A stretch of DNA of 64,000 nucleotides from Halopseudomonas sabulinigri (GTDB lineage Bacteria; Pseudomonadota; Gammaproteobacteria; Pseudomonadales; Pseudomonadaceae), in contig DRHT01000047.1 of assembly GCA_011053055.1 (NCBI GenBank), positions 62,001 through 126,000 of the forward strand, in the 5' to 3' direction. The notes under the pieces are model-generated. The model saw only the letters and a list, made by a program, of their open reading frames with translations. It had not been told where the DNA came from and made no database searches. Below, in pieces: positions 40,964 to 43,291 of the stretch (positions within the stretch are counted from its first letter, which is position 1; every line of letters begins with the position of its first letter). The position numbers were made by a program, and so were the translations under genes.

Positions 40964-42040
40964 CTACCCCACCACCCCTGCCCGCTCAATCACATAGCGT
41001 AGATTATCGAAATCGATGTTGGCGCCAGAGTTGATGGCAACCAGTACCTGATTGCGACATTGCTCGCGCTTTACATATTGCTTCAGGCCCGCAACGGCCA
41101 ATGCGCCGGAAGGCTCGGTGATAGAGCGGGTGTCGTCGTAGATGTCGCGTACGGCGGCGCAGATATCGTCGTTGCTGACGGTGAGCACTTCGTCCACGTA
41201 GTGGCGGCATAGCTCAAAATTGTGCTGCCCTACCTGCGCCACGGCTACGCCGTCGGCGAAGCGACCGACTTTCGGAAGGGTTACCCGCTCGCCTGCCTGT
41301 AGGGCGGCTTGCAGACAGGCAGACTCTTCCGACTCGACGCCGATGATGCGGATGTCCGGGCGCAGGTATTTTACGTAGGCCGAGATGCCGGCAATAAGAC
41401 TGCCGCCACCGACTGGTACGAAGATGGCGTCCAGTTGGCCGCCCTGCTGACGCAGCACTTCCACCGCGACTGTGCCTTGCCCGGCAATCACATCGGGATC
41501 ATCAAACGGTGGCACAAAGGTGTAGCCGTGCTGCTCTGCCAACTGCAACGCAAGAACCAGTGCCTGTGGAAAGGCTTCCCCGTGCAATAGTGCGGTAGCG
41601 CCGCGTGAGCGCACGCCCTCAATCTTCAGCGCTGGCGTGGTGGTGGGCATTACGATCAGGGCCTTGATGCCTAAGTGCTGCGCCGCCAGCGCGACGCCCT
41701 GTGCGTGATTACCGGCGGATGCGGTGATTACACCACGAGCGCGAGCGGCCTGGCTCAGGCGCGCGATCTTGGTGTAAGCGCCGCGAATCTTGAAAGAGAA
41801 CACTGGTTGCAAGTCTTCGCGTTTGAGTAGTACCTGATTGCCAAGGCGTGATGACAGGGCTTTGGCGGTTTGCAGAGGGGTTTCTATGGCAAGGTCGTAG
41901 ACCGGCGCAGAGAGGATACTGGCGACTTGCTGTTTGAGCCGCGCACGCTGTAGCGCGAAACTGCTTTGCTGTTCGACGAGCGCTGGTGGCTTGTCTAACA
42001 ATGGCGGTGTGAGGGCAAGTGCTGCTGACGCGGTATTCAT
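40964..42040 (-). CDS. ilvA: Threonine deaminase (threonine ammonia-lyase), short form without regulatory domain
   Basis: A PLP enzyme of 358 residues that turns threonine into 2-oxobutyrate and ammonia, the first step to isoleucine. The PLP lysine lies in FSFKIRGAY (about residue 84), with SAGNHAQG and GGGSLIAG as further cofactor contacts. It stops right after NSGANIDFDNLRYV, where long IlvA proteins continue into an ACT-like allosteric domain of about 150 residues. No remnant of that domain is seen downstream, so it is not an obvious recent truncation. The ATG at 42040 has AGGAG five bases upstream. A candidate leader-peptide attenuator precedes it, suggesting control by charged tRNA rather than by feedback on the protein. 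Confidence 0.9.
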   Translation of the reverse strand: MNTASAALALTPPLLDKPPALVEQQSSFALQRARLKQQVASILSAPVYDLAIETPLQTAKALSSRLGNQVLLKREDLQPVFSFKIRGAYTKIARLSQAARARGVITASAGNHAQGVALAAQHLGIKALIVMPTTTPALKIEGVRSRGATALLHGEAFPQALVLALQLAEQHGYTFVPPFDDPDVIAGQGTVAVEVLRQQGGQLDAIFVPVGGGSLIAGISAYVKYLRPDIRIIGVESEESACLQAALQAGERVTLPKVGRFADGVAVAQVGQHNFELCRHYVDEVLTVSNDDICAAVRDIYDDTRSITEPSGALAVAGLKQYVKREQCRNQVLVAINSGANIDFDNLRYVIERAGVVG

Positions 42041-42078
42041 GGTGTCTCCTGGAATCACTTTGGCCTAGGAGACGTTAT

Positions 42079-42104
42079 AAAAAACCCGCCTCGAAGGCGG
42101 GTTT
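42079..42104 (-). terminator. Attenuator terminator upstream of the threonine deaminase gene
   Basis: On the minus strand AAACCCGCC-TTCGA-GGCGGGTTT followed by a run of T (six at 42084-42079) is a strong intrinsic terminator. It lies after the leader-peptide stop and 39 bases before the ilvA ATG, so it should stop transcription before the gene. The left arm CCCGCC (42101-42096) can instead pair with GGCGGG at 42128-42123 in the last leader codons, which would prevent terminator formation. Confidence 0.8.
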
Positions 42105-42118
42105 GGGTGCGCACAAAG

Positions 42119-42184
42119 CTAGCCCGCCGATATTGGAATCGCGGCCATAATCATCTGTGCGTGGAACTGTGCGCGGTTATTCAT
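42119..42184 (-). CDS. Candidate leader peptide of the threonine deaminase attenuator
   Basis: A 21-codon open frame, beginning MNNRAQFHAQ and ending AGly-TAG, with isoleucine at positions 12 (ATT), 16 (ATT) and 18 (ATA, a rare codon in this group). The segment GCGCACA in codons 4-6 can pair with TGTGCGC (42115-42109), and GGCGGG in codons 20-21 can pair with the terminator left arm. This is the 1:2, 2:3, 3:4 layout of a classical amino-acid attenuator. The predicted transcription start (42184-42185) falls on the ATG, so the peptide may be read from a leaderless mRNA. No Shine-Dalgarno is seen. Confidence 0.6.
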   Translation of the reverse strand: MNNRAQFHAQMIMAAIPISAG

Positions 42185-42191
42185 AAGTTCG

Positions 42192-42221
42192 AATGTAGCC
42201 GTTAGGCTGAGTGCGGGTCAA
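42192..42221 (-). promoter_or_regulatory. Promoter of the leader-ilvA transcript
   Basis: On the minus strand TTGACC (42221-42216, five of six), an 18-base spacer and TACATT (42197-42192, four of six) form a moderate sigma-70 promoter in the gap after the MscS gene. Transcription would start at about 42185, at the ATG of the leader peptide. Confidence 0.6.
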
Positions 42222-42259
42222 GCGGCATCTTGCTCGACCCATTGGCACAACGCTGCAAG

Positions 42260-43291
42260 TTACTCACGTGGCGCACTCGGGTCGAGCAGATCCTCGGCGC
42301 CGCGCTTGCTCTGATCCTGTGCGATCTGCGCGTCCAGATCGCCTTGCACCCGCATGTCTACTGCAGATTCGCTACTGGGCTGCAGCTTGGGCTTGGCTGC
42401 TGGCGATTCGGGTGCCCCGGCAGTGGGCGTCAAGACTGCACTGCGTTCGGTAAGCTGCACTCGGTAGATAGGTTCGGGCATGTCCATTTCGGCCTCTTCC
42501 AGCGCCAATTTAACCTGACGGATGGCCTCACTCTTGACGCTGATGAAGTCATGGCTGCGTTGATCGACCCAAGCGTGATAACGCACTTGCACATTGGAAT
42601 CACCGAGTGCAGTGATATAGGCGCGTGGCGGCGGTGTATCCATTACGCCGTCAAGGCTATCCAGCTTGCTGGTGCCGATACGCTGTGCGAGTACCAGATC
42701 CTCATTGACGCCAATACCCACATCAAAGGAAAAGCGCCGGCTGGGGTTGCGTGTGTAATTGAGCATGACGCTGCTGAACACCAATGCATTGGGCACCCGC
42801 AAGTGGTTGCCGTCGAGGGTCATCAGGACGGTGGCGCGTGATGTGAGGGCAACGACGACGCCTTCATTACCGTCTATGACGACATGGTCTTTGGGGGCAA
42901 AAGGCTGACGCAGGCTCATCAAGATACCGGCCAGGTAGTTTTCCATGGTGTTTTTGAAGGCAAAACCCAAAGCGACGCCGAGCACCCCGGCGGTCCCGAG
43001 CACAGCGCCGACCAAGGCCGTCGCGTTCATGATCTCGAGTGCGATGAGGATACCGATCACGGTGGCGCTCCATCGCACTGTGGTGCGCGTCAGATCGCGC
43101 ATAAAGGGGTTGCGCGAGGTAAACCGCTCCAGCACTGCGCGGCGTGATAACCAGCCACCCGCAGCCCAGCATAGGCTGATCACTAGCAATGCCAGCAAGA
43201 GCATGGGCAGGGCCGCCAATAGGCGATACGCCTCTTCCAGCAGACGTTGCATTACCGGTTCCAGATCAAAGTGCAGTTGCTCTGCGTCCAT
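42260..43291 (-). CDS. Small-conductance mechanosensitive channel (MscS family)
   Basis: A 343-residue membrane channel that opens under osmotic downshock. There are three N-terminal hydrophobic segments. The pore helix is seen as ALVGAVLGTAGVLGVALGFAFKNTMENYLAGI, with the alternating Gly/Ala pattern (core GTAGVLGVALGFAF); the beta-domain LRQPFAPKDHVVIDGNEG follows. The C-terminal 55 residues are rich in Pro, Ala, Ser and charged residues and look disordered, an addition to the basic MscS fold. It is followed by the ilvA leader promoter. Confidence 0.92.
   Translation of the reverse strand: MDAEQLHFDLEPVMQRLLEEAYRLLAALPMLLLALLVISLCWAAGGWLSRRAVLERFTSRNPFMRDLTRTTVRWSATVIGILIALEIMNATALVGAVLGTAGVLGVALGFAFKNTMENYLAGILMSLRQPFAPKDHVVIDGNEGVVVALTSRATVLMTLDGNHLRVPNALVFSSVMLNYTRNPSRRFSFDVGIGVNEDLVLAQRIGTSKLDSLDGVMDTPPPRAYITALGDSNVQVRYHAWVDQRSHDFISVKSEAIRQVKLALEEAEMDMPEPIYRVQLTERSAVLTPTAGAPESPAAKPKLQPSSESAVDMRVQGDLDAQIAQDQSKRGAEDLLDPSAPRE

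Follow-up and report, generated by a model that had tools for sequence, protein, structure and literature searches.

A predicted isoleucine-sensing attenuator matching Rfam P9 ahead of a short threonine deaminase gene in Halopseudomonas sabulinigri

Features of the ilvA locus

The window analyzed in this study is a stretch of 64,000 nucleotides from Halopseudomonas sabulinigri. On its minus strand, ilvA, encoding a short threonine deaminase, is preceded by a short leader ORF with a sigma-70-like promoter of its own, and an MscS ORF lies further upstream (Table 1). The intrinsic terminator is located between the leader and ilvA, as an attenuator requires, and is defined by the sequence and by the 3:4 helix. 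The original prediction had listed the promoter, the 21-codon frame with three Ile codons, the terminator, and the ilvA start, and a letter-by-letter check found all of these elements at the positions given in Table 1.

Table 1. Elements found around the leader, with positions in the window
Element	Position	Strand	Basis
MscS ORF, upstream of the leader, on the same strand as the leader and ilvA	end at 42260	minus	
Sigma-70-like promoter: TTGACC, 18-nt spacer, TACATT; 7 nt between TACATT and the leader ATG	42221-42216 (TTGACC); 42197-42192 (TACATT)	minus	sequence
Leader peptide ORF, 21 codons, MNNRAQFHAQMIMAAIPISAG	42184-42119 (ATG to TAG end)	minus	sequence; conserved peptide and codon columns
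Ile codons 12 (ATT), 16 (ATT), and 18 (ATA) of the leader ORF	within 42184-42119	minus	sequence
Rfam RF00624 (P9) match	42081..42154	minus	52.4 bits
Arm 1, CCGCGAT, within the leader ORF	42138..42144	minus	1:2 helix
Arm 2, GGCGGG, final codons of the leader ORF	42128-42123	minus	pairs with arm 1 or arm 3
Arm 3, CCCGCC	42101-42096	minus	2:3 antiterminator and 3:4 terminator
Intrinsic terminator: arm 4, GGCGGG, and T6	42090-42085 (arm 4); 42084-42079 (T6)	minus	sequence; 3:4 helix
AGGAGAC ahead of ilvA	42050-42044	minus	sequence
ilvA, short threonine deaminase, 358 aa	40964..42040 (ATG 42040)	minus	Pfam

When the window was compared with 4227 Rfam families, RF00624 ("Pseudomonas sRNA P9") was the sole match at the gathering thresholds, with an E-value of 2.6e-8 and a gathering score of 43. 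No T-box or riboswitch was matched in the window at the same thresholds, nor in the region 42000-42300 up to an E-value of 1. In the genome of the window, no P9 match other than this locus reached E ≤ 0.001, and R1, a model built from 33 hand-picked leaders, gave 70 bits for the locus, the next best score being 26. Read in the leader frame, the P9 consensus corresponds to I-I-I-T-A-I-P-V-M-A-G-stop and the window to M-I-M-A-A-I-P-I-S-A-G-stop. The element is similar to P9 in sequence and structure, as the match covers all 74 model positions, whereas the Rfam entry is typed as a gene and the match here is the 3′ portion of a leader carrying an open frame. In relatives as well, P9 corresponds to the 3′ part of an open-frame leader with a conserved frame and conserved 1:2, 2:3, and 3:4 helices, and elements of the P9 type were also found outside the Pseudomonadaceae-like group of the window. 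The position and coding frame of the P9 match point to a cis leader.

The folding energy of the leader was unremarkable (z-score of -1.74; 14/200 shuffles folded equally well). Given a folding energy that is ordinary for this base composition, conservation has to decide. A promoter scan was uninformative, with 3 matches in 4 kb compared to 1.3 expected, and the minus-strand terminator was absent from the output of the same scan.

Conservation of the leader, its codons, and its helices

Upstream regions of ilvA were compared at 110 loci, consisting of the best 80 of 590 IlvA-similarity candidates and the best-scoring 30 from 198 genomes of the family; a script classified these as 25 short and 85 long ilvA. 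With a criterion combining the frame and the arm 3 motif, which was composed after the first peptides had been viewed and was therefore not blind, the leader was detected at 44/110 loci, namely ahead of 23/25 short ilvA (including L093, which was counted as short with a leader and also ends early) and 21/85 long ilvA, leaving 64/85 long loci without it. The same criterion detected a leader in 1/2180 shuffled upstream regions and 1/110 reverse strands. The two short-class loci without a detected leader were L038, which is truncated at the contig edge but retains a visible terminator, and L058, in which the frame is interrupted and the class is uncertain. The original prediction had proposed a check of conservation across relatives; the frequency of the leader at these loci relative to the shuffles and the double changes in all three helices described below both agree with it.

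Searches with R1 extended this distribution. In the family, 97/198 genomes matched at E ≤ 0.001, and 82/198 genomes reached 56 bits with one match each, the next score being 39; genuine leaders scored as low as 26–39 bits (L213, L024, L025, and L226), which makes the counts above the 56-bit level minimum values. In the genus of the window, 16/33 genomes reached 68 bits. The 30 best-scoring family loci all had ilvA downstream, with a SnoaL-like gene between the leader and ilvA at L206. In a class-wide sample, 35/369 genomes matched at E ≤ 0.001. Among the 29 new loci of this sample, L149–L152 (49–67 bits) precede a recognized target gene. The other 25 (L153–L177) gave no tblastn match to six query proteins, and no Ile-run leader appeared for them in the mechanical list, in which positions are approximate for loci cut by contig ends.

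In Pfam, the IlvA of the window contained the PALP catalytic domain (PF00291) and no PF00585, and the same genome encodes a second IlvA of 514 aa with PF00585 in two stretches. Among R1 matches at E ≤ 1, none was located near the gene for the 514-aa protein. The attenuator is on the extra, short ilvA copy. The original prediction had connected the attenuator with the lack of an allosteric domain in this enzyme. The domain is indeed missing, but the attenuator is not simply its substitute: the leader also precedes long IlvAs elsewhere, so that "attenuation instead of allostery" is no general rule.

The leader peptides of relatives share a conserved C-terminus (..IITAIPxxAG-stop), and their N-terminal half and the spacer are variable. 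In 45 distinct leaders ending in AG or VG, codons -10 and -6 were both Ile in 45/45, and codon -9 was Ile in 39 and Met in the remaining 6; the leader sequences are related, and neither these codon counts nor the covariation counts represent independent events. Because codons -10 and -9 precede arm 1, the named helices do not account for their conservation. Ile made up 18.6% of the post-start leader residues (201 in 56 leaders), compared to 80 among roughly 1740 codons of four window genes. The Ile codons of 53 distinct leaders were mainly ATT (150 ATT, 34 ATC, and 8 ATA), and the four window genes favored ATC (51 ATC, 23 ATT, and 6 ATA). The leader ORF of the ilvA type spans arms 1 and 2, with its stop codon directly after arm 2. 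In kinase-type leaders, found ahead of a P-loop kinase gene, the Ile run differs in codon number and in synonymous codon. At L135, the leader frame ends inside the 1:2 hairpin (IITAIT-stop) in the kinase-type fashion, yet it precedes a long ilvA.

TTGAC was located 34–38 nt upstream of the leader start in 55/59 leaders (not de-duplicated); the motif was absent from three SnoaL leaders belonging to a single genus. Over the 17 nt preceding the start, the best Shine-Dalgarno match was 2–4 nt long in every one of the 59 leaders. The distance from the -10 box to the ATG was 6–8 nt in 53/56 leaders, which is largely set by the allowed spacers of 16–19 nt once TTGAC is placed, the independent fact being the constant position of TTGAC. 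As transcription starting 6–8 nt past the -10 box would place the RNA 5′ end at or beside the ATG, the promoter spacing suggests that the RNA is probably leaderless.

Covariation was analyzed in alignment A1, consisting of 33 leader sequences, by comparing doubly changed cells with those of 500 shuffles. In the 1:2, 2:3, and 3:4 helices, 95.5%, 89.2%, and 99.6% of cells were paired, with 8, 3, and 4 double changes that were reached by 0/500, 5/500, and 0/500 shuffles, respectively. The three helices are mutually exclusive, and RNAalifold recovered 1:2 and 3:4 unprompted. In eight sequences, a single position is changed jointly in arms 1 and 2, and three of these eight carry the change in all four arms, from G-C-G-C to A-U-A-U. 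In the predicted 2:3 helix, five of the seven pairs are invariant and hence uninformative, and the outermost pair is unpaired in 25/33 sequences; judged from the alignment, support for 2:3 is the thinnest of the three, with one position showing double changes.

The 1:2 helix of the window consists of CCGC/GCGG and GAT/ATC around one bulged G, and the common-register columns 36-51 and 37-50 are unpaired in it. The original prediction had assigned 1:2 to the pairing of GCGCACA (42174-42168) with TGTGCGC (42115-42109). Both motifs were confirmed letter by letter on the minus strand, and the pairing was rejected as the conserved 1:2 helix, which is CCGC.GAT/ATC.GCGG within the ORF; it is at best an outer extension of the latter. 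The proposed 2:3 and 3:4 pairings were retained. At least 6 outer pairs around 1:2 were predicted in 23/23 cluster representatives, slightly exceeding shuffles (Fisher p of 0.02 over the 23 representatives, with none below 0.05 singly). The longest outer helix was reached by at most 5/100 shuffles in 21/56 leaders, many of which are near-duplicates.

Proposed mechanism and alternative explanations

The original prediction of an Ile-responsive attenuator with competing pairings before ilvA is supported by the conservation of the frame, the Ile codons, and the pairings in relatives. We consider it highly probable that the element controls ilvA through ribosome-mediated transcription attenuation, with charged tRNA-Ile as the signal sensed. 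The elements, their conservation and covariation, and the placement of the Ile codons are observed; the RNA start site, stalling, switching, and the response to Ile are inferred. Transcription would begin at or beside the ATG of the 21-codon leader. When Ile-tRNA is scarce, the ribosome would stall at codon 12 (or 16) and cover arm 1, leaving arm 2 free to pair with arm 3 while arm 4 has yet to be synthesized, so that no terminator forms and ilvA is transcribed. When Ile-tRNA is plentiful, the ribosome would reach the stop codon and cover arm 2, and 3:4 would form; transcription would then stop after about 105 nt, and the product would be a short RNA of the Rfam P9 kind. In the case of no translation, 1:2 would form, and termination would again be the default.

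The effect of ribosome position was modeled with one assumed footprint, in which the ribosome edge lies 12 nt past the first base of the A-site codon, on RNA up to arm 4. In 53 related leaders, Ile accounted for 174 of the 503 codons at stall positions leaving 2:3 formed and for 18 of the 623 codons at other positions. In the model without a ribosome, 49/53 leaders lacked 2:3 and 4/53 formed it. For the window leader, stalls at codons 6 to 16 permitted 2:3, and stalls at codon 18 (ATA) and at the stop codon did not. The original prediction had counted three Ile codons, including the rare ATA; the model suggests that codon 12 and probably codon 16 are the sensors, while codon 18 is predicted not to be one, because it lies too far 3′ and a ribosome stalled at ATA would cover arm 2. 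At all stall positions tried, equilibrium folding of the full-length window leader yielded the terminator, so the switch would need co-transcriptional timing.

In favor of Ile attenuation, ilvA and the two cimA-like targets represent entry steps of Ile synthesis; against it, the three Ile codons of the window leader are non-consecutive (I-M-A-A-I-P-I). The attenuator might instead, or in addition, sense threonine, the substrate, as codon -8 was Thr (ACC) in 44/45 of the related leaders ending in AG or VG. This codon overlaps arm 1, which can account for its conservation, it is Ala in the window, and Thr is absent from the Ile run of kinase leaders such as ARIIIIP; we regard threonine sensing as quite improbable. 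The hairpin could also be merely the terminator of the upstream MscS gene, given that readthrough from this ORF would meet it. The original prediction had named RNA 5′ ends placing the hairpin only at the end of the MscS transcript as grounds for its refutation. Against a mere MscS terminator, an MscS homolog was found in the flanks of only 6/110 ilvA loci, some flanks being short, and the leader in 44. A promoter between MscS and the leader, the position of which is kept in relatives, also argues against this explanation, to which we assign the smallest chance of those weighed here.

That RF00624 is typed as a gene in Rfam would suit an independent trans-acting sRNA gene lying before ilvA by chance; a distinct terminated transcript of about 105 nt would be expected in any case. 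Such a gene would leave unexplained both the place of P9 just before a few gene families, kept across families and orders, and the maintenance of Ile codons outside any helix, and an sRNA gene of this kind appears very unlikely. A cis attenuator whose terminated leaderless RNA or peptide additionally acts in trans has a better, still small, chance. A precedent with the same layout as proposed here is rnTrpL/peTrpL of Sinorhizobium meliloti (PMC7298713). The variable N-terminal half of the peptide and the variable spacer speak against such a dual function.

The proposed attenuator can be compared with those of the enterobacterial ilvGMEDA, ilvBN, and leuABCD operons, which follow the 1:2/2:3/3:4 scheme. 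It is similar to them in its leader codons, alternative hairpins, and terminator before the first structural gene. It differs in its targets, which are ilvA or other individual genes and not complete ilv operons, in that the leaders of the set have 15–30 codons with 2–7 Ile and the ilvA-type ORF covers arms 1 and 2, and in that it has no Shine-Dalgarno sequence and is probably leaderless. The putative RNA start at the leader ATG is a likeness to the trpL attenuator of S. meliloti, an alphaproteobacterium, which differs in responding to Trp instead of Ile. The trpL attenuator RNA has been described as beginning directly with the start codon of a 14-aa leader ORF, with the peptide acting in trans (PMC7298713). 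In general, such attenuators combine alternative hairpins and a terminator with a leader peptide containing codons of the amino acid under regulation, and putative leader peptides have been noted before branched-chain genes in various Gram-negative species (PMC6123439, the latter point citing Vitreschak 2004).

Among the literature matches listed, no description of P9 or of a Pseudomonas ilvA attenuator was recognized, and an earlier prediction by Vitreschak et al. (2004) is possible; the portions of PMC5542712, PMC8395346, PMC3349714, PMC6123439, PMC7298713, PMC2965389, and PMC5150637 consulted describe neither. The kind of attenuation is known, and the members reported here are new. The results offer a testable function for P9, whose Rfam description is limited to Pseudomonas sRNA, and suggest that single ilvA genes in the family of the window are subject to amino-acid attenuation.

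Genes downstream of the leader in other genomes

A P9 search of the order gave matches in 34/293 genomes at E ≤ 0.001 (10 above the Rfam cut-off), at 36 places corresponding to 30 loci. An Ile-containing leader was recognized by eye in 23 of the 30 loci, including L010, L011, L013, L017, L024, and L025, which had failed the scripted pattern or the start-codon rule. The leader preceded short ilvA (L001–L003), more distant threonine-deaminase-like genes (L024 and L025), SnoaL-like genes (L004, L005, and L007), a P-loop kinase gene at thirteen loci (L006, L008–L017, L023, and L029), and cimA-like genes (L018 and L021). L019, L020, L022, L026, L027, L028, and L030 have terminators without an Ile leader and were set aside.

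When the search was started from the kinase, 15/254 genomes of the order matched at E ≤ 1e-20 (loci L208–L222), and an R1 match was found upstream in 13/15, these genomes largely overlapping those of the P9 search. The copies without an upstream R1 match were L215 and the broken copy L220. The kinase leaders are Ile-rich (e.g., ..ARIIIIP-stop) and have the same hairpins. The PEGWP motif was invariant in 11 aligned kinase copies. The best NCBIfam model was "DNA topology modulation protein," at 82.8 bits compared to a cut-off of 215, and a sequence search of the PDB for its substrate gave only weak matches. The AlphaFold model (mean pLDDT of 82.9) matched shikimate and adenylate kinases with TM-scores of 0.42–0.66 of the query among the 50 matches listed. 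On the basis of this model, the protein is assigned to the adenylate/shikimate-kinase fold, an assignment that covers the predicted fold and not the substrate.

A search starting from the SnoaL-like protein matched 7/254 genomes of the order at E ≤ 1e-12, with an R1 match in 4/7. Outside the order, the leader was found before SnoaL-like/DUF4440 genes at L149, L150, and L152. The proteins of the cimA-like loci are represented by that of L018, on which the assignment rests; its best NCBIfam model was (R)-citramalate synthase CimA, below the cut-off, and the ORF is truncated where the locus ends.

On balance, we lean toward the view that P9 is a widespread gammaproteobacterial Ile attenuator with a leaderless ORF, and that its targets, ilvA and the cimA-like, kinase, and SnoaL-like genes, form an Ile-starvation regulon. 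If this is true, the kinase and the SnoaL-like protein would be encoded by genes with an unrecognized part in supplying Ile or in responding to Ile scarcity. A shared sensor ahead of two uncharacterized protein families provides a handle on their roles.

Several further arrangements were observed. L018 (..GIIIRL-stop) and L021 (..AIAITILAGIIIAGVSARVG-stop), from two genomes of one genus, have Ile leaders and P9-like terminators. The leader also precedes a SnoaL-like/DUF4440 gene at L226, and at L123, L127, L128, and L136 a similar C-terminus is located right before a long ilvA.
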